From positions 620,001 to 684,000 of the forward strand of contig JABUFB010000008.1 of NCBI GenBank assembly GCA_013314775.1: 64,000 nt of DNA, read 5' to 3'. The DNA comes from Armatimonadota bacterium. GTDB lineage: Bacteria; Armatimonadota; Zipacnadia; Zipacnadales; JABUFB01. Made by a program: the position numbers and the translations under genes. Every line of letters starts with the position of its first letter. Within the stretch, counting starts at the first letter, position 1. Under the pieces are notes generated by a model. That model worked only from the letters and a program-made list of their open reading frames with translations, had not been told where the DNA came from and made no database searches. Positions 1,790-12,984 of this stretch are shown piece after piece.

Positions 1790-1957
1790 CGCGGTAACCT
1801 CGAGGGACAGTTGGGGTGGCGGCGCGCGAGGCGCCAGGACAGGAGACGGTTCGTGGAGAGGCGCCGGGAATCCTGCCGGTGCGTGGAAGTCAGGACTCCG
1901 TTGGCTTGCGTCGACTCCATTGCCGGCCAGGGGCGAGTGACCACGCGAACGCGAACC

Positions 1958-1991
1958 CGGCAGGAGCGTCCCCGCCCCCACGCTCCTGCCG
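1958..1991 (-). terminator. 12-bp perfect hairpin between kinase gene and GH2 gene
   Basis: The 12-base arms at 1958-1969 and 1980-1991 are exact inverted repeats around a 10-base C-rich loop. It lies downstream of the sensor kinase stop (2109) and upstream of the GH2 start (1789). It could end the two-component operon, but no T-run follows on either strand. The rest of the 319-base gap shows no gene. Confidence 0.4.
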
Positions 1992-2108
1992 TATCCACGT
2001 TCCGGCCGCAGTCGGCCAGTCCCCCGGCTCACCTTTTGGCATCTGTGCCCAGTCTTATATGCACGACGGGCGCAAAGTGTTACAGGTCTGACCGAAAAAA
2101 GATGGGGT

Positions 2109-3608
2109 CTAGGGCGGATCGCTCAGCGGGAGCGTGAGGACGAAAGTGGTCGTGTCCGGTCCCCCTCGTGCAAGCGTGAGGTCTCCACCGTGGGCGCGCG
2201 CGATCTCCCGGGCAAGGCTCAGGCCCAGGCCGACGCCATCCACTGATCGATCTCGCGCCTTGCTGGCCCGGTAGAAGCGCTGGAAGACCTTCCCCACATC
2301 CTCCGGAGGAATACCCGGCCCGGTGTTTGCCACGGTCAGGCGCGCCAGCGTCCCGCGGCGCTGCAGTTGGTAGCGGATCGTTCCGCCGGGGCGATTGTAC
2401 TTGATGGCGTTCGCAGCAAGATTGTGAAGCACCTGACCCAGCAGTTCGGCATCCGCCGCCACCCAAATGTCAGGTTCAGACTGGATAGAGACACCGAGAT
2501 CCGGCGCCAGGGCCTCCGTGTCTTCGCGCACGGTCTCCAGTGCCGCGCTGAGGTTGAGCGGTTCGAGGCTCAACTCAAGCCGACCAGCGTCAGCCAGCGA
2601 CAGGAGCAGCAGCTTGCGGATGATGCTCTTTAGCCTCTGCACTTCCTCCAGCAGATTGCCGTAGACCTGCTGCTCCCGTGAGCCGTCCTTCGCATCCTGA
2701 AGCGCTTGTTCCAACTCTGCCTGCAGGACCATGAGCGGCGTCTTCAATTCGTGCGCCGCGTCCGCGCTGAACCGAGTGGCCTGCTGGAAACTGCTTTCCA
2801 GGCGTTCCAACATCGCATTGAAGACGCTGATCAGGCGCGCGAATTCCGCGTCGGCATCGCCGGCCGAGATGCGCCGGTCCAGGCCCTGAACCGTGATGGT
2901 CTCTGCTGCTTCGGTGAGTTCCCTCACCGGCCGTAGAGCGCGCCCCGACAGCAGCCATCCCCCTCCTGCCGCAAGCAAAGCCGCAAGGGGAAGGGCCAGG
3001 AGCAGGGCCATTGTGGTCATAAGCATGGCACTGCGGTGCCCGGCGAGACTCACGCCGATGATGACGGTCACGTACTCGTTGCCCGTGATTGCCACGCGCC
3101 AGGGCCTGATCCCTTCATTCCAGCTGAAGGCTTCGGGTTGCCTGATGCGGGTGGGTGGCAGCAGGGCCTCGCGGCGAGACCGGCCACCCTCCCGCCGGAA
3201 TTCGCCCCGGCTGCGCAAGGGTGGCGGCGGCTCTTGGATGCTCAGACTGCTGGCCCTGTCACCCGGCGCCGGGAAACTGCCCGGATCAAGGCTCTCCGGC
3301 CAGGTTTTTGACCGATAGACGGTGCGTCCGGCACGATTCTTCACCAGCAAGAACACGGCCGTCTCATCACTGGGACCGTAAGCGTAGCGCAACTGGTCCT
3401 CGAGTTCGCCCCAATGGCGATTATCAGGATGCCAGGCCAGATGAGGCAGGACGCGCAGGCGCACTTCATTATCAATGCGCTGCAGGTCCAGGCGGCCGAT
3501 GAGAATCCAGGCAGGGATTGCGAAGGCGAGGAGCGCCACGCCTGAGACCAGCAGCGAAAGCAGGGCGATGCGATAGCGGAAAGTGCGCACGCGCGGGAGA
3601 TTGCGCAC
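2109..3608 (-). CDS. Sensor histidine kinase (two-component, HAMP type)
   Basis: This 499-residue inner-membrane kinase would sense an extracytoplasmic signal and phosphorylate the regulator encoded just upstream. A first membrane segment lies at about residues 15-38 and a second at about 192-218, enclosing a periplasmic domain. A HAMP linker follows (LRPVRELTEAAETI), then the HisKA box FSADAAHELKTPL with the phospho-acceptor His at about 286, then HATPase N, G1 and G2 boxes (NLAANAIKYN, GPGIPPEDVGKVFQRFYR, GVGLGLSLAREIA). The GTG start directly follows the regulator's TGA, and GGAGG sits 6 bases upstream, so the two genes are translationally coupled. The layout resembles the CusS/CopS/BasS group, but the signal is unknown. 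The periplasmic domain is rich in Arg, Pro and Glu. Confidence 0.93.
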   Translation of the reverse strand: MRNLPRVRTFRYRIALLSLLVSGVALLAFAIPAWILIGRLDLQRIDNEVRLRVLPHLAWHPDNRHWGELEDQLRYAYGPSDETAVFLLVKNRAGRTVYRSKTWPESLDPGSFPAPGDRASSLSIQEPPPPLRSRGEFRREGGRSRREALLPPTRIRQPEAFSWNEGIRPWRVAITGNEYVTVIIGVSLAGHRSAMLMTTMALLLALPLAALLAAGGGWLLSGRALRPVRELTEAAETITVQGLDRRISAGDADAEFARLISVFNAMLERLESSFQQATRFSADAAHELKTPLMVLQAELEQALQDAKDGSREQQVYGNLLEEVQRLKSIIRKLLLLSLADAGRLELSLEPLNLSAALETVREDTEALAPDLGVSIQSEPDIWVAADAELLGQVLHNLAANAIKYNRPGGTIRYQLQRRGTLARLTVANTGPGIPPEDVGKVFQRFYRASKARDRSVDGVGLGLSLAREIARAHGGDLTLARGGPDTTTFVLTLPLSDPP

Positions 3609-4280
3609 TCAGGACCTCCGGAAGCGGTAGCCGACGCCGCGGATGGTCTCGATGAACTGCTGGTCACCCTCGGGGCTGAGCTTCTTGCGCAGGCGCTGGA
3701 TATACACGTCAACCAGGTTCGTATTCGGGTCGAAGTCATATCCCCAGACGTGGTCAAGAATCTGTGTTCGCGCATATACCCGGCCCGGTGAGCGCATGAG
3801 GTATTCCAGAAGGTTGAACTCGCGGGTGGTCAGCTCAACCGTCCGCTCCCCCACCTTCACCTCGCGTGTAATGAGGTTGACGACGAGGTCCCCGGACCGG
3901 ATGATACTGAGCTTTTCCCCACTTGCCCGTCGCATGAGCGCCTGCACTCGAGCCACGAGCTCTTCCATGAAAAACGGCTTGGTCACGTAGTCATCCGCGC
4001 CCAGGTTCAGCCCCTCAACCCGTTCGCCCAGTTCGGAGCGGGCTGTGAGAAGAAGCACCGGGACGGTATTGTGACGGTCGCGCAATGCGCGCAAGATGCT
4101 GAGGCCGTCGCGGCCCGGGAGCATTATGTCCAGCACGATCACATCGAAGCTCTCGCTGGTCGCGAGATCGAAGGCCTGATCGCCGTCGGGCGCGAGGGTC
4201 ACGCTGAAGCCCTGTTCCTCCAGGGCCTTCCGTATGAACCCGGCGGTCTTCTTCTCATCTTCAGCAACGAGAATGCGCAT
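3609..4280 (-). CDS. OmpR/PhoB-family response regulator
   Basis: This 223-residue DNA-binding regulator pairs with the kinase at 2109-3608. The receiver domain starts MRILVAEDEKK, has the phospho-acceptor Asp at about 51 in VIVLDIMLPG, the switch Thr in LLLTARSE and the conserved Lys in DDYVTKPF. The C-terminal winged helix shows ELTTREFNLLEYLMRSPGRVYAR and ends with IETIRGVGYRFRRS, the usual transcription-regulatory hallmark. Length is normal for the family. No Shine-Dalgarno sequence precedes the ATG. A promoter-like pair puts the likely transcript start at or within a few bases of the ATG, so the message may be leaderless. A perfect palindrome lies upstream of that promoter, which would fit autoregulation. 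Confidence 0.95.
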   Translation of the reverse strand: MRILVAEDEKKTAGFIRKALEEQGFSVTLAPDGDQAFDLATSESFDVIVLDIMLPGRDGLSILRALRDRHNTVPVLLLTARSELGERVEGLNLGADDYVTKPFFMEELVARVQALMRRASGEKLSIIRSGDLVVNLITREVKVGERTVELTTREFNLLEYLMRSPGRVYARTQILDHVWGYDFDPNTNLVDVYIQRLRKKLSPEGDQQFIETIRGVGYRFRRS

Positions 4281-6315: not shown

Positions 6316-7827
6316 TCACCGGTACTCGATCAGAACCACCTCGACGATGTGGTTGGCCCGGCTCTTGCCCGCGTTTTCGTTGACGTAAGGCTGGGGTGCA
6401 TAGCCGATAGTCGCCTGTTCGCCGGGCCTCGCGAGGTCCGTGACGTCGATCTCCCAGGGAATGACCAGCGCGCCGGGACCCCATCCCGCCCGATCATATT
6501 TCCAGGTGCCGCCCTGGGGCCGGCAAGGGTTCAGGTAGTTGTTAGTGGTCCACAGGAGATTCTCGAATGCCTTCCCGTTGACGGTAACCGTGCGCTTCGC
6601 AGGCATGAACTCCGCCGCATTGTCCGTGTTCGGGTGCATTCCGTGCCCGGTCACCACCAGGCGGAGCTTCGCGGATGTCGTCCCCGGATCAAGGGTGAGC
6701 GTGCGGGTAGTAAACTTCGCATCCATCGGGTCCTGCGGGTTGCCGTATTCGAAGTCTCCCTGCCACAAATTGGTGACCCGGAAGGCCTCCCGCTCCGGCG
6801 TTCCCCAGTAATACTCCAGGGCCACGCCCACGCGCCATCCCTTCACCCATGTGCTGATACTCACAGCCATCCTGCGCTTGCCGCGGAGAAGGGACTGGAA
6901 GTCGGTCACATCCGCCTTCCACTGGCACCCTCGTCCGAAGGGCGTGATGAACCGCAGAATCTCGTATCGCTGCCCGTCGTCGCCGAAGACGTAAACATGC
7001 CCCGCGCGATCCCACGGGTCGATGCCTCCCTCGGGCGCGCCGAGGGCCAACGTCAGCATGACGCGCTCGACCTGTCTGGTGGCGCCGGGCAGGTCCACGG
7101 TGGTCTCACGGGTCTGCTGTCCGGCGTTCAGGACCGCGTCGTCGAAGACGGTGAACCGCTCCGGCGTTGGCATCGGACCGGCGGGATCGGATAGCGTCAG
7201 CCCGTCAAAGTCGATAGTGCATGAGGCTTCGCCGGCGCCAGGATTGAAACCAAAGGCCGCCCGGCACTCGTATGGTTGCATGTCCGGCACGAAGAGCTCC
7301 GCGTAGACGGGCTGTCCGTCGATAGTTACGGTCACATCCGCCCCGGCGGTGACGTAGGCCAGTTGCACGAGAACTTCATACGGTCTTCCATCCTCATAGG
7401 CCACCGGCGACAGTGCGTTCGCCACTTCTCTCCCATCCCAGTGCAGAGAGACCTCATGCTCCGGGCGACCGTAGATGTTGCCGTCGGCGTTGAACCGGTC
7501 TTTCGTGGGCGGATTGCTGGTGTCGAAGCCCACGCCGAAAGCGCCCGGGATGTTGGGCTCTTCCCAACGCGGGATTGCCGGTGCCGTCGCGCCGTGGGCA
7601 TGGGTGTCGGTGTTGACCAGCACGAACCCCGTGCCCTCTGCCTTGCCGCTGAACTGGATGGTGAAGCGAGCTTGCACCTTCAGGTACGCCCCCGATGCAC
7701 TGCGCGCGAAACCGGTGGTGACCTGTCCTCCAGAACCGTCACCAGCCAGGACCACCGGCTCGGCAGCAACCGGCACAGCGCAGCTGGCAAGAAGCAGGGG
7801 CAGGACGACGGAGAAAGAACGGTTCAC
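6316..7827 (-). CDS. PNGase F-like peptide-N-glycosidase with L-type lectin-like domain
   Basis: This 503-residue secreted protein probably cleaves the amide bond between Asn and an N-linked glycan. A signal peptide (1 to about 22) is followed by a concanavalin-like lectin domain at about 25-212 (GAFGVGFDTSNPP, EVSLHWDGREV). The two PNGase F jelly-roll domains follow. Recognisable are DPWDRAGHVYV, whose Asp corresponds to the PNGase F catalytic Asp of the WDR motif, NAAEFMPA with the second key acidic residue, and NPCRPQGGTWKYDRAGWGPG. The last motif is usually RAGWCPG; Gly replaces the disulfide Cys here. The gene stops just before the GH42-like gene's end and shares its strand, spacing 51 bases, so they are probably co-transcribed. 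Family membership is strong; activity is inferred. Confidence 0.82.
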   Translation of the reverse strand: MNRSFSVVLPLLLASCAVPVAAEPVVLAGDGSGGQVTTGFARSASGAYLKVQARFTIQFSGKAEGTGFVLVNTDTHAHGATAPAIPRWEEPNIPGAFGVGFDTSNPPTKDRFNADGNIYGRPEHEVSLHWDGREVANALSPVAYEDGRPYEVLVQLAYVTAGADVTVTIDGQPVYAELFVPDMQPYECRAAFGFNPGAGEASCTIDFDGLTLSDPAGPMPTPERFTVFDDAVLNAGQQTRETTVDLPGATRQVERVMLTLALGAPEGGIDPWDRAGHVYVFGDDGQRYEILRFITPFGRGCQWKADVTDFQSLLRGKRRMAVSISTWVKGWRVGVALEYYWGTPEREAFRVTNLWQGDFEYGNPQDPMDAKFTTRTLTLDPGTTSAKLRLVVTGHGMHPNTDNAAEFMPAKRTVTVNGKAFENLLWTTNNYLNPCRPQGGTWKYDRAGWGPGALVIPWEIDVTDLARPGEQATIGYAPQPYVNENAGKSRANHIVEVVLIEYR

Positions 7828-7878
7828 GGTTTGCCTCCGATGCCGGCGGTCTGCAGGTTGTCCCGCAGGCGGCCGCGG

Positions 7879-10800
7879 TTACGGGATCAACTCCAGCAGT
7901 GTGGTGGAGTTCGGCGGCAGGTCCAGATGGATGGATGCGCCACGGCCAACAACGCCTTCAGTGATCGCATTCCGTACGGTAGCGGGCTCAATGAGCTTCA
8001 GTTCACGAGGGCCACCGTCCTTCGTGTGGATGCTGATGAAACGCGAATCAGCCCGCAGCACGTCTGCCGGCGCGTCGATGTACTGGTGCACCCCGGCCCT
8101 GCGGACCATCTCCGCCAGCAGGTCGCGGGGCATGGAAGGCACGGCCGAGAAGAGGCTGCTCGAAAGGCCATGGCCGGTCATCACTACCGCGGGCTCGCCG
8201 GTGCCTGTCAGGCGGCCGAGAACGATGCCCTGACCATCGCGGGGAATCAGCGCCGGGGTGAAGACGCCCTCACCATAGGAGCGCCGCTCAGACTTCGCCA
8301 CGGGCCCCGAGACCGCTGCGAGGTCACGCAAGGACAAGGTGCACTTGCCGGCAGTGTTCGTGCCATCCAAGACGAACTTCATGCCACGGATAGGCAAAGC
8401 TATTTTCCCAGGCTGGAGCTTCGACCACGGGGCATTCGCGAAGGCCTCCAAGGGGTACTTCAGCCGCCGCCACTCGCCGGGGACGATCACTTCCGGCGCT
8501 GTCTGGAACTCCGCCCAGTTCGCATCCTTGATCACCGTCCGCAGCATGAGCCGCGAGCAGTCGGCCTCGAGCTTCACATCGAACGCGACCCCATCGCCGG
8601 GCGGGATCTCGGCAGTGAAATGGATGTCCGTCCAGGGGTAACGAGTGTCGAAGCTCCAGGCAACACCGCCCTCGATCGGCGCGAACTCGTACACGGTGTA
8701 GCTGTCTTTCATCTGCTGAGGCGTGCGCGGATTGAGCCAGTTCTGCGCGTCGTCGAATCCCGGCACGGAAGTGCTGCGGTCAGGGGCAATCGAGTAGACC
8801 GTGTGCGACGTGACGGATGGCGCAATCGGGGTCCCTTCCGGCGTGAGCTCCACCACCGCAGGGCGCCAGTCTTGCGCCAGCGACAGGTCGAGACCAGTGA
8901 CTCGTGATGCCTGCTGCACCAAGACGCGATCCGGTTCGCATAGCCCGGGCGCCCAGATGAACACCGTGGCATGGCGGCCCGACAGGCGCAATTCTTCGAC
9001 CGCACTCGCTTGGGCAGGTGTCATACGGATAGTGTTCAGGAACACCAGGAGCTTGTATCTTGACAGATCCAGGCTATCAAGTTGCCCGAGGAACACGAAA
9101 TCCACGGGCGCTCCCAGGTGGTACAGCGCCGTGCCCAGCTTCTCGGTGAGGGCGTACATCTGGGCCATACCCTCGGTGTCGCTGAGCAAGTACCCGCTCT
9201 CCAGGTCGCAGACAACCGCAATCTCCGCCACGGATTCCCGGGGCTTCGAGACAGCCGCGGTAGCGACTTCCTGCAGCGCTTTGGCCTCCGCCATGATCTC
9301 CGGGTGGTCGAACCACCCGCCGCGGCCATCCGGGCCGAAATCCACGAACCAGAAGCCGGTGTGCTCAATAAGCGAGGTGGCGAACTCGCGCCGAATGGCC
9401 GCAAGGCTCTCCTCTCGTGTGTCCGTGCGACCGTACTCATTGCGCGAGTGCAGGTAGGTCCTAATGTCCGCTTCAATGATGTGGACCTTCCCCGCCGCGT
9501 TGATGGCTGCCGCGAGGCTGCGCAGACGACCATCCTGTCCCATGAGGCGATCTGCGTAGCTGTACGGGGCCACGAAATAGTCGATGCTGGGCGACTTCAG
9601 CAGGCGTTCAAAGGCAAGATGTCCCCCCTGGGTCTGGGGTCGGACACCGAAGAAGTAGCCGTAGTACACCCCGTAGATCGCGTCCCCACCGGTCTCCTCT
9701 TTCGCAATTCGTCCGAAGTGCTCGATGGCGTTTGCGATGACATCCTGCTGGCAGTGGTAATAGTCGATCACGGGGCGCTCGAGGACCGGATCGCGCACGG
9801 TCTGGAGTGTCGCGGTCCTGCGCGCCTGCATGGTCGGCACAGCGGCGTTATCGAAGGTGATGGCATCGTCTCGCCATGCCCGGCGCAGGTCATCCACCGT
9901 GGGATACTTGTCGCGCAGCCACATACGGAAAGCGCGGGTCATGGCCGGGCTGGTGTCAGGATACTGATCGCTCCAGCTTCCGAAGTAGTGCCACTCCGTG
10001 TAAATGCCGTACCCGGCGTGATAGCCGATGACTCGCTTGCCCCAGGGCTGCGCTTCGATATGCCGGATCGCGGCGCGCCAGGCGTCGGAAGCATCTCGCA
10101 GCCAGACTTCGGACGCGGGCGACGCGCGTTTGACCCGGTACGACTCGTCGCTGCTGTCAATTGCGTCTGATGTGGCATAGCGCACCCACTCGTCGGGATT
10201 GGCCTGCATCCACCACTCCGGCATGATGAGCCGGATATGCAGCAGCAGGTAGGCGTCCGGATCGACTGACAGGAAGCTGCGGATCAGCGTGTCGATGCCT
10301 GAAAAGTCATACTCGCCAGGCGCTTTCCAGCACCCGAGAAGAGTGGTGTACAGGCACTGCAGGTGGATGCCGGCGTCGCGGAAGTTCGCGATCTGCCGGC
10401 GGCCGTGTACGGAGGCAGGGTCCACGGTGCCGCGATACATGACGGCCGGGCGCGGCACACCATTGATGAAGACAGCCGGGGCGCCATTGTGGTGCTTCAG
10501 TGCGGCGCGAACCGGCGGGTCATCGGCGAACTGCTCCACAGGAGCCACGATGGATGCCTCGAACCTGCGGTACTCGGCAAGCTCCTCCTCACTCACCATC
10601 TCTGCAGTGTGGTAGCCTGGAAACTCGGACCAGGGAAGCGAAAATGCCGGGCCGATGACGTGCGCGGCCACCCAGGTGGAGTCGTCGAAATCCGCGCTGG
10701 TCCACCCGTCCTGCTCGTCTCGGGATGTACGCCAGGTTCCATCGGAACCGATCACCGTCGTCGTCCCGCCCGGTCCATTGACCGTAAGGCGAGCAATGAC

Positions 10801-11148
10801 CCCACCGGGACCGGTGACATTGTGGGCCTCAATGGCGATTACATTACGCCCGGGCCTGAGGATGCGGGTCAAGTCATAGCGCGCGGGGCCGGAGTCTCGC
10901 TCAATCGGTCTCAGGGGGCCCTCGCCGTTGGCGTAGACGGTCTGCCGGTCGTCCACTACCACGTCCAGGAGCGCCGTCACGAAGCCTTCGTGAAGATCGA
11001 AGGTCTTGCGCAGGTAGCGGCTCTCATCGATGCATTCGCCCGAGGCAACCTCCGGATACCAGATCCAGTTGGCGGCGGTCTGCTGGGCGAGAACCGGGCT
11101 TGCAGCGAGCCAGATGAGCAGCATTGTCGTGCGGTGCATGTGGACCAT
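7879..11148 (-). CDS. Secreted GH42-like (clan A) glycosidase, paralogue of 53473-56517
   Basis: This is an exported enzyme of about 1089 residues that probably cleaves a beta-galactoside-like bond. A signal peptide ends near LAQQ. A jelly-roll domain like the N-domain of bacterial alpha-L-rhamnosidases follows (WTSADFDDSTW). The TIM barrel carries the likely acid/base Glu in GYHAGYGIYTEWHYF and the likely nucleophile in KVHIIEADIRTYL. A GATase-like trimerisation domain follows (ALYHLGAPVDFVFLGQL) and then a C-terminal beta-sandwich with CBM-like features. It shares all these motifs with the protein at 53473. Two ATGs lie at 11148 and 11139; the second has AGG about 9 bases upstream and the first almost none. 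It lies 31 bases after the 11180 gene on the same strand. The exact family number is uncertain. Confidence 0.8.
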   Translation of the reverse strand: MVHMHRTTMLLIWLAASPVLAQQTAANWIWYPEVASGECIDESRYLRKTFDLHEGFVTALLDVVVDDRQTVYANGEGPLRPIERDSGPARYDLTRILRPGRNVIAIEAHNVTGPGGVIARLTVNGPGGTTTVIGSDGTWRTSRDEQDGWTSADFDDSTWVAAHVIGPAFSLPWSEFPGYHTAEMVSEEELAEYRRFEASIVAPVEQFADDPPVRAALKHHNGAPAVFINGVPRPAVMYRGTVDPASVHGRRQIANFRDAGIHLQCLYTTLLGCWKAPGEYDFSGIDTLIRSFLSVDPDAYLLLHIRLIMPEWWMQANPDEWVRYATSDAIDSSDESYRVKRASPASEVWLRDASDAWRAAIRHIEAQPWGKRVIGYHAGYGIYTEWHYFGSWSDQYPDTSPAMTRAFRMWLRDKYPTVDDLRRAWRDDAITFDNAAVPTMQARRTATLQTVRDPVLERPVIDYYHCQQDVIANAIEHFGRIAKEETGGDAIYGVYYGYFFGVRPQTQGGHLAFERLLKSPSIDYFVAPYSYADRLMGQDGRLRSLAAAINAAGKVHIIEADIRTYLHSRNEYGRTDTREESLAAIRREFATSLIEHTGFWFVDFGPDGRGGWFDHPEIMAEAKALQEVATAAVSKPRESVAEIAVVCDLESGYLLSDTEGMAQMYALTEKLGTALYHLGAPVDFVFLGQLDSLDLSRYKLLVFLNTIRMTPAQASAVEELRLSGRHATVFIWAPGLCEPDRVLVQQASRVTGLDLSLAQDWRPAVVELTPEGTPIAPSVTSHTVYSIAPDRSTSVPGFDDAQNWLNPRTPQQMKDSYTVYEFAPIEGGVAWSFDTRYPWTDIHFTAEIPPGDGVAFDVKLEADCSRLMLRTVIKDANWAEFQTAPEVIVPGEWRRLKYPLEAFANAPWSKLQPGKIALPIRGMKFVLDGTNTAGKCTLSLRDLAAVSGPVAKSERRSYGEGVFTPALIPRDGQGIVLGRLTGTGEPAVVMTGHGLSSSLFSAVPSMPRDLLAEMVRRAGVHQYIDAPADVLRADSRFISIHTKDGGPRELKLIEPATVRNAITEGVVGRGASIHLDLPPNSTTLLELIP

Positions 11149-11179
11149 CCTATCTGATCCTTCCGTCGGACGATTGAGT

Positions 11180-12814
11180 TCAGTCCCGGGGCCCGTCCGG
11201 TGTGAATGTCACTGAGCCCTGTCCAGTGTGGATCGTGATCTCCCCGCTGCCATACTCGGATCGGAGGGCCTCGCAGTCGTGGAGCATCGCCGGCGGGTGG
11301 GGCCGCGGCACGCCGTTGATCGCTATGCTCATGTCGGACAGGTCGACGCAAACGCTGTCGGCGTTCAGCAAGGTTGCCCGAACTTGCCCGCCTGTCATCA
11401 CCGGCGGCCTCAGCGCCTGCAGGAAAGCCTCTTCGCTCGGGTGCTGGTCAAGATCGGACGCCTGTAGCACGTGGTACGAGTCAGGCAGCGCGAAATGGGC
11501 GCAAAGGCCGGCGCCCACCGCATACAGGTTCCAGCCGCCCACACTCCGCGCAGTGATGCCGCCGTCCTCGAAAAGAGTGCCTTGCCCGAGAAGCCAGTTG
11601 CGGTGCTGCACCACGCGCCCGCGCGCTTCATATCGGCGCTTGTGAGGGGGTACGCCGGGCAGGATCATCTCCACTCGCAGGCCCTGCGATGGGTCTGCAG
11701 CGAAAAAGACTTTGCTGTACCGACTTTGGCAGATCCAGCCGTCCGAGTGAATCGAGCCCATTGAGACGTGGGGCGTGTTGTAGTAGTTGATGGCCCCGGG
11801 CATCCACTTCTGGCTCTCCCAGTGGGTCTCGCCATGTTCGGCCCCGGGCCAGCCCAGGTATCTCCGGCCCCGGTACACCAGTTCGGATCGCGTCAATGAT
11901 TCTGCGGCCAAAGCGGCCACCAGCGGGTGCGGGACGAAATCGCTGCAGGCGAAGAACATTCCCTCATCCTGTTTCAGGCGAGGCTCGTTCCCGCTGGCAT
12001 ACTCCACGGTCGCGGGCTCGAGTCCTTCCACGCGCGACGTCGTGAAGTCGAAGCGCGGTTCGCCGAGACCGAAAGCCAGCCATACCGTGGGCAGGAAGGC
12101 ATCATAGCGCGGGTCTTCGAGATAAGCGACCTTCCGGGCGTTCGGTGAATCTTTGGCGTCGGCGGTTCGGCAGCGGAAGGACGGACCACCCAGAAAGCCC
12201 CGCACGCCAAGTGCCGCACGTTCGGCTAGCAGCACGTTGAGCAGCGCGTCTGCGCAGCGCCGCAATGGCTCATCCGGCGCATAGTCGGCCAAAATGATCA
12301 GCGGGTTGGAGTAGTGGAACTGGTAGCAGGCCGAGTTCCACTCGATGAACCCGCGCTCGAATCGCCAGCGCAGCGCCTGCATGATCTGGGCGACCTGACC
12401 GGAGGTGTCTTCGCCAACCTCGTGCCGCGAGAACAGGCCGATGGTCAGGTGCATCAGGTCGTGGTTCTCGGTGTGGGCTGGCGGCCACTTCGCCACGGAA
12501 CTCAGGTCATTGCGCGGCCAATCTCTGAGGACGGACAGGATGCGGCCCTCTCCTGCAGCTGACAGGCGCCCCAAGCCCCTTGTGTCCAGGAGCGTCCGCA
12601 AAAAGCGGATGAAGAAGATGTCGCTGTCGCGGGTTACCTCGAAGGACTCGAAGTACCGGTTCGCATCGTCCAGGTCATGGCCGCGCAGGAGACGCGCGTG
12701 GTTCAGCGCCCAGCGCCGCCCATCCGCGGGATGCATGTGTGGCTCAAGCGCGCTGAAATGTTCGACTATCCAGTCGACGTACTCAGCGCGGCGTTGTGCG
12801 ATTTCTGCCGACAT
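11180..12814 (-). CDS. Unrecognised soluble protein, possibly an alpha-toroid glycan-active enzyme
   Basis: This 544-residue protein has no signal peptide or membrane segment, so it is expected in the cytoplasm. The first 300 residues look mainly helical, with WPPAHTENHDLMHLT and SACYQFHYSNPLIILADYAPDEPLRRCADALLNVLLAERA. This resembles (alpha/alpha)n toroid glycosidases and lyases. The second half is richer in strands. His and Tyr in the NHDLMH and CYQFHYSN motifs could be catalytic, but I cannot name the family. ATGs occur at 12823 and 12814; the second is preferred because GAGGTGG is 9 bases upstream, versus only 3 for the first. It is first in a probable operon with the GH42-like and PNGase F-like genes and is divergent from the GH28-like gene. 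Confidence 0.7.
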   Translation of the reverse strand: MSAEIAQRRAEYVDWIVEHFSALEPHMHPADGRRWALNHARLLRGHDLDDANRYFESFEVTRDSDIFFIRFLRTLLDTRGLGRLSAAGEGRILSVLRDWPRNDLSSVAKWPPAHTENHDLMHLTIGLFSRHEVGEDTSGQVAQIMQALRWRFERGFIEWNSACYQFHYSNPLIILADYAPDEPLRRCADALLNVLLAERAALGVRGFLGGPSFRCRTADAKDSPNARKVAYLEDPRYDAFLPTVWLAFGLGEPRFDFTTSRVEGLEPATVEYASGNEPRLKQDEGMFFACSDFVPHPLVAALAAESLTRSELVYRGRRYLGWPGAEHGETHWESQKWMPGAINYYNTPHVSMGSIHSDGWICQSRYSKVFFAADPSQGLRVEMILPGVPPHKRRYEARGRVVQHRNWLLGQGTLFEDGGITARSVGGWNLYAVGAGLCAHFALPDSYHVLQASDLDQHPSEEAFLQALRPPVMTGGQVRATLLNADSVCVDLSDMSIAINGVPRPHPPAMLHDCEALRSEYGSGEITIHTGQGSVTFTPDGPRD

Positions 12815-12984
12815 ACCTGACATCCACCTCGCGCCGGAGTGCAGGGCTTATATCCACAGGCACCCTGGCAGTTCGTCTTCTGGCAGCAGTCACCTCTCAG
12901 GGAAGGGCCGAAGGCCGGGTGCATGGAACTTTCGTGGGACACGCGCGCACCGACTTGCGGGATAACTCGAGAGGAACCAGATTC

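Follow-up and report, generated by a model that had tools for sequence, protein, structure and literature searches.

Peptide:N-glycanases (PNGases) are a standard tool for N-glycan removal. It is established that few of them accept glycans with core alpha1,3-fucose, as excerpts of PMC9522356 also state. Here we describe a PNGase F relative encoded in a stretch of 64,000 nucleotides (hereafter, the window; positions 620,001 to 684,000 of contig JABUFB010000008.1, assembly GCA_013314775.1) from an Armatimonadota bacterium. The protein, which we call lectin-PNGase F, carries an L-type-lectin-fold domain ahead of its PNGase domain, and represents a real and apparently distinct subfamily; no paper on a lectin-fused PNGase F was found in the literature searched.

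The closest known relatives include PNGase F of Elizabethkingia (Flavobacterium) meningoseptica (1pnf), a type I enzyme. According to excerpts of PMC9522356, core alpha1,3-fucose is barred by Glu118 of type I enzymes; in type II enzymes this residue is Gly and a Glu lies elsewhere (E418 in the text, E419 in the legend). The type II enzymes PNGF-II (4r4x) and Bacteroides massiliensis B035DRAFT_03341 (7zgn) have an N-terminal accessory domain and a small residue at position 118, as does lectin-PNGase F. Zebrafish Ngly2 (9lwg) also has an accessory domain ahead of the PNGase domain, in this case a PA domain, while the group 1 PNGase of B. fragilis (3ks7) shares the catalytic fold and lacks a lectin domain. 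Activity of Ngly2 and of the B. fragilis enzyme is reported in PMC12753239 and PMC9522356, respectively.

A PNGase F domain joined to an L-type-lectin fold

The gene and its two domains are as follows.

6316..7827, minus strand: lectin-PNGase F gene, 503 amino acids, GTG start
7180..7761, minus strand: L-type-lectin-fold domain, N-terminal, approximately residues 23-216 (model m7ef570732a67, VIA)
6319..7179, minus strand: PNGase F double jelly-roll catalytic domain, approximately residues 217-503 (PF09112/PF09113, VIA)

The GTG start is preceded by GGAGG, and residues 1-22 look, by eye, like a putative Sec-type signal peptide. An earlier note, made from the letters of this DNA, had pointed to PNGase F motifs in the protein, and these are present: PWDR (residues 271-274), NAAEF (403-407), and GTWKYDRAGWGPG (440-452). 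The Pfam profile PF09113 (N-glycanase_C) matched with an E value of 1.4e-16 and 61 bits (cut-off 25), and PF09112 (N-glycanase_N) with 1.7e-8 and 34.9 bits (cut-off 22.4), the latter over profile positions 107-177 of 177 only. In a phmmer comparison, lectin-PNGase F alone matched 1pnf with an E value of 8.9e-23. The collection of relatives by phmmer yielded 55 hits, of which 10 were duplicates; the remaining 45 rows include the window protein, and alignment A1 holds 40 of them (L007, L013, L024, L030, and L053, which are fragments or near-copies, were left out). A 40-row family profile searched against Protein Data Bank (PDB) sequences found PNGase F (5.2e-38) and zebrafish Ngly2 (5.5e-27), followed by two Bacteroides PNGases, the plant-glycan PNGase 7zgn (1.5e-9), and PNGF-II. 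A chance match of short motifs is ruled out by the Pfam scores above cut-off and by the phmmer and profile matches to PNGase F. The protein belongs to the PNGase F family.

An AlphaFold model of residues 23-503 (m7ef570732a67) had a predicted local distance difference test (pLDDT) score of 93.6 and a predicted template modeling (pTM) score of 0.91. VIA aligned the model with 1pnf over 281 residues (Z 32.5, root-mean-square deviation 2.3, 28% identity), matching the two stacked jelly-rolls. For the catalytic domain, Z was 29.7 with Ngly2, 27.0 with 3ks7, and about 27 with the type II enzymes 4r4x and 7zgn (26.9 for the latter).

The L-type-lectin-like domain that had been claimed for the same chain was confirmed at the level of the fold. 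The N-terminal domain of the model matched the archaeal legume-lectin domain 7elv (Z 16.2), ERGIC-53 (15.5), VIP36 (15.1), and legume lectins (about 15). At the level of sequence, the Pfam profile Lectin_L-type_dom matched the protein with an E value of 0.12 and reached 2 of 40 family members (best E value 6e-4), and the domain alone matched no PDB sequence at an E value of 10. The accessory domain thus matches L-type lectins, whereas excerpts of PMC9522356 describe a bowl-like NBL domain in type II enzymes; VIA aligned 4r4x and 7zgn over the catalytic domain only, and the lectin-fold domain may still be related to NBL.

Among 291 genomes of the phylum, a profile of the lectin-fold domain matched in 29 of the 30 that have a PF09113 match and in none of the 261 others; the one genome of the 30 without it, G246, matches PF09113 below the cut-off. 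Because the profile was built from fused proteins, it says nothing of other L-type lectins. Apart from a PNGase, the domain was found in the phylum only as one 135-amino-acid fragment and one weak match. The fusion is therefore a fixed architecture in the phylum, where the PNGase domain practically always carries the lectin-fold domain, and this near-constant pairing is more in keeping with a structural partner than with a binding module that is shuffled freely.

The domain could nevertheless be a true Ca2+-dependent L-type lectin and tether the enzyme to glycans rich in mannose; the earlier note had raised the idea of glycan targeting, and this view is compatible with amidase function. Mannose-binding ERGIC-53, VIP36, and legume lectins are among its nearest structural matches, and an FD..N..D pattern that resembles the legume-lectin Ca2+ site is mostly kept (D102 in 39 of 43 rows, N105 in 33, with Asp in 9 more, and D110 in 29). 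However, D74, the loop-A Asp of the classical sugar site, is not conserved and is Ser in the sibling species. The best-conserved residues of the domain (P106, F112, N117, R121, P122, and a VSLHW stretch) lie away from both sites and may form an interdomain surface. Given this pattern, and the scarcity of the domain on its own, we regard a sugar-binding Ca2+ lectin as possible while leaning against it.

Active-site residues and position 118

Conservation was counted in a 45-row MAFFT alignment that included PNGase F, with gaps set aside. The residues of interest are listed below.

7009..7011, minus strand: D273, the WDR aspartate, aligned with catalytic Asp60 of PNGase F (all 44 rows that have a letter here)
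6610..6612, minus strand: E406, the NAAEF glutamate, aligned with catalytic Glu206 of PNGase F (45 of 45 rows)
6490..6492, minus strand: R446, Arg248 of PNGase F, in DRAGW (42 of 42 rows with letters)
6643..6645, minus strand: H395 of the TGHG motif, where PNGase F has Trp191 (45 of 45 rows)
6853..6855, minus strand: S325, at PNGase F Glu118, the type I/II specificity position (45-row alignment)
6748..6750, minus strand: E360, candidate replacement acid (co-occurrence over 45 rows)

Both catalytic residues of PNGase F, whose counterparts the earlier note had left to be located, are present as D273 and E406 (sequence alignment within the superposed fold). The equivalents of W59 and R61 (W272 and R274) are conserved in 44 of 44 rows. 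In Ngly2, changing the equivalents of D60 and E206 wholly abolished activity, according to excerpts of PMC12753239. Trp191 is replaced by His in lectin-PNGase F, and profile-search alignments place a His at this position in Ngly2 and in the B. fragilis PNGase as well. The TGHG motif is common to these two enzymes and to a PA-PNGase encoded on a Deinococcus radiodurans plasmid (L114, positions 1915-3879), in which a PA domain precedes the PNGase F domain, as it does in animal Ngly2; R61 is His in Ngly2 and Tyr in the Deinococcus protein. We note that section 8 of PMC12753239, as excerpted, pairs Ngly2 W420 with Trp191 and H422/H546 with Trp59/Arg61, while the HMMER alignment sets WDH on W59-D60-R61 and the TGHG His on W191.

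It had also been observed that the usual Cys of the RAGWCPG motif is Gly. This holds, C252 of PNGase F corresponding to Gly450, but the change marks a lost disulfide rather than a catalytic residue; the functional change is the replacement of E118 by Ser. The partner cysteine, C231, is Asn in lectin-PNGase F; at position 252, 39 rows have Ala or Gly and 2 have Cys. Since none of the three disulfide pairs of PNGase F is kept in the family, the Gly reflects a broader loss of these bonds. We accordingly rejected the idea that the absent Cys means an inactive enzyme: neither C231 nor C252 is retained, and Ala or Gly prevails at 252.

With Ser at position 118, lectin-PNGase F lacks the third acid of PNGase F, the one that defines type I PNGases. 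Across the 45 rows the residue is Gly in 18, Glu in 16, Ser in 2, Asp in 2, and another residue in 7; Ser is limited to the window protein and its same-genus sibling. The type II enzymes have Gly here, and the B. fragilis enzyme is given Asp in the excerpts of PMC9522356. Glu occupies the E360 column in 19 of the 27 rows whose residue at 118 is not acidic, as opposed to 6 of the 18 in which it is (Fisher p 0.03); because the rows are related, this co-occurrence is a lead only. The column aligns with Ile156 of PNGase F and lies 35 residues past position 118. This distance is near that of the type II pair G380/E419 in the excerpts of PMC9522356, which makes E360 a candidate equivalent of E418/E419. 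When the E360 stretch was searched with sub-profiles A2 and A7, PNGF-II was not among the matches listed, or was absent. The combination of Ser325 and E360 is, by sequence, reminiscent of type II PNGases that tolerate core alpha1,3-fucose.

In a tree of the catalytic domain, Armatimonadota and Planctomycetota rows were interleaved, and the states at 118 and 360 were mixed in several parts. Because many deep forks are weakly supported, no count of 118/360 switches was drawn from it. One Planctomycetota subclade (L047, L048, L051, L053, and L056) stands on a long branch and has a G-NVG motif in the 118 region and a shortened loop before Glu206; L047, L051, and L053 have several neighboring genes in common. 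We put forward, tentatively and with more doubt than conviction, that a PNGase F subfamily with an obligate L-type-lectin fold in the two phyla switches between a type-I-like active site (acid at 118) and a type-II-like one (small residue at 118, Glu at 360).

Distribution, locus, and genome content

The earlier note had called such a function rarely assigned to this kind of bacterium. This did not hold: PF09113 matched in 30 of the 291 phylum genomes (28 above cut-off), and the two-domain protein occurs in Planctomycetota as well. The closest named record, L031 (Armatimonadetes bacterium isolate Gw_SlDig_bin_68), is 85% identical over 439 residues, and its PNGase sequence is identical to that of the same-genus genome G001. 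A PNGase-related protein of Hymenobacter (L113) has a different C-terminal part and is encoded between GH27 (glycoside hydrolase family 27) and alpha-L-fucosidase genes. Viral contigs gave 36 pattern matches, with no relative among them. Literature searches for PNGase with Armatimonadetes or planctomycet, covering titles, opening abstracts, and a portion of PMC8812541, returned no such enzyme.

Two genes precede the PNGase gene on the same strand.

7879..11148, minus strand: GH42-like glycoside hydrolase, 1089 amino acids, with an N-terminal rhamnosidase/lectin-like beta domain
11180..12823, minus strand: 547-amino-acid protein, first gene of the run, without Pfam match

The gaps are 31 bp between the 547-amino-acid gene and the GH42-like gene and 51 bp between the latter and the PNGase gene, and are compatible with an operon. 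Upstream, a GH28 open reading frame (ORF) on the plus strand diverges from the 547-amino-acid ORF; the listed 5' ends overlap at 12796-12823, and one of the two starts is probably further in.

The proposed operon of the PNGase with a GH42-like enzyme stands as far as the gaps go; the arrangement is kept only in the same-genus genome, and orthologues of the GH42-like protein (42-75% identity) occur in genomes of the same class without a PNGase. The identity of the GH42-like protein itself was borderline by Pfam (PF02449, 20.9 bits against a cut-off of 21; 23.5 bits for the upstream-extended frame of the sibling), but a Foldseek search with its model ranked GH42 enzymes first (4uzs, E value 5.8e-21). 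E385 and E559 (E368/E542 in alignment numbering), candidate catalytic acids, are invariant in 24 rows. The GH42-like family is expanded, with 18 matches to this one protein in the window's genome, G000. The 547-amino-acid gene has orthologues of 51-70% identity in four other genomes of the class and a shorter match in a fifth; it appears lost in the sibling, since only short 5' stretches matching it stand between GH28 and the GH42-like gene (L031, approximately 653-791).

The beta-mannosidase-like GH2 gene cited as a neighbor is real (Glyco_hydro_2_N2, Mannosidase_ig, and Ig_mannosidase domains), and its 5' end (approximately 2032) lies 4.3 kb from the 3' end of the PNGase gene, with a two-component system and an Lcl_C gene between; the genome, however, has 20 GH2_N2 matches in all, of which this is one. 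With the GH28-GH42-PNGase arrangement kept by the sibling only, we dropped both the GH42 operon and the proximity of GH2 as support for function. The region is dense in carbohydrate-active enzymes: L076, to the left of the window, and window positions 1-25000 encode GH106, heparinase II/III-like, GH2, ceramidase-like, GH28, RGL11-like, GH39-like, and GDSL esterase proteins.

Neighborhoods of relatives were called with a simple script based on longest ORFs and third-position GC content (GC3), and will contain errors; in L031, L041, L066, and L070 it kept apparent antisense ORFs over the PNGase, and BLAST coordinates were used for loci without a kept PNGase ORF. Clustering of ORFs from 47 stretches revealed no neighbor family beyond PNGase in more than four loci.

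Proposed function and its alternatives

We consider it probable that lectin-PNGase F is a secreted N-glycan amidase that feeds a scavenger, the activity being predicted. In the proposed mechanism, D273 would activate water and E406 would complete hydrolysis of the amide between N-acetylglucosamine (GlcNAc) and Asn, freeing the N-glycan and leaving Asp. Ser at 118 together with the nearby E360 suggests a more open, type-II-like pocket for the core GlcNAc, which may tolerate core alpha1,3-fucose of plant, algal, or invertebrate glycoproteins; specificity for core-fucosylated glycans is a testable guess. The lectin-fold domain would most likely sit beside the active site and help to hold the glycan or the peptide. 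The freed glycan could then be trimmed as food by GH38, GH20, and GH2 enzymes, for which the genome has 8, 6, and 20 (GH2_N2) matches.

The predicted amidase function (EC 3.5.1.52) is likely, but several observations weigh against this reading. Among 69 ORFs adjacent to the PNGase in 43 loci, no Pfam family occurred in more than three, and there was no conserved N-glycan gene. The window's genome lacks GH92, one of the main families of N-glycan mannosidases; in the 291 genomes this family occurs in 7 of 30 with PF09113 and 33 of 261 others, which is no significant co-occurrence (Fisher p 0.16). In the type II-like part of the proposal, E360 tends to take the place of E118, a suggestion drawn from spacing and from a co-occurrence uncorrected for kinship. 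Neither acid is present in 8 of 45 rows. The five-row Planctomycetota clade makes up most of this class, because without it (n=40) the class drops to 3, next to 19 rows with E360 and no acid at 118, 12 with the acid and no E360, and 6 with both. Finally, PNGase F E118Q retains less than 0.10% activity according to the review PMC9102325, in which other residues are numbered inconsistently. Overall, N-glycan use is plausible, but the gene neighborhood is no proof of it.

A different possibility is that the PNGase fold and core residues are kept while another N-glycosylamide or related linkage is cut, such as that of a bacterial or archaeal glycoprotein, S-layer, or exopolysaccharide glycan, rather than that of eukaryotic-type N-glycans. 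The free-living lineages known from metagenome-assembled genomes, the pectin-type enzymes in the immediate surroundings (GH28, RGL11-like, and GH39-like), the lack of GH92, the variable position 118, and the mostly orphan state of the gene would all suit it. However, the glycan-facing W59, R61, and R248 do not vary, pointing to retained recognition of chitobiose, the genome does encode GH38, GH20, and GH2 enzymes, and, according to excerpts of PMC9522356, Bacteroides group 2 PNGases also include orphan genes. We therefore think this alternative unlikely. A catalytically impaired relative, whose two domains serve as a glycoprotein-binding protein, could be imagined from the E118 to Ser change and the loss of three disulfides, but is very improbable, since D60, E206, W59, R61, and R248 are invariant across the 45 rows, even where E118 is missing, as would not be expected had catalysis not been under selection, and since Ngly2 is active yet appears, in the alignment, to lack an acid at 118.

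If the secreted amidase and its proposed 118/360 switch are real, the shift of a single carboxylate would have produced type II specificity on more than one occasion. Lectin-assisted PNGases for core-fucosylated glycoproteins of plants, algae, or invertebrates would then exist in free-living bacteria, with the lectin fold closing over the substrate in the way modeled for the PA domain of Ngly2. The 45 non-redundant relatives combine a new accessory domain with residues that differ naturally at position 118; they form a panel for type I versus type II specificity, and also allow the effect of an added carbohydrate-binding fold to be probed. For the organisms, the finding suggests that scavengers of N-glycoproteins include environmental Armatimonadota and Planctomycetota.

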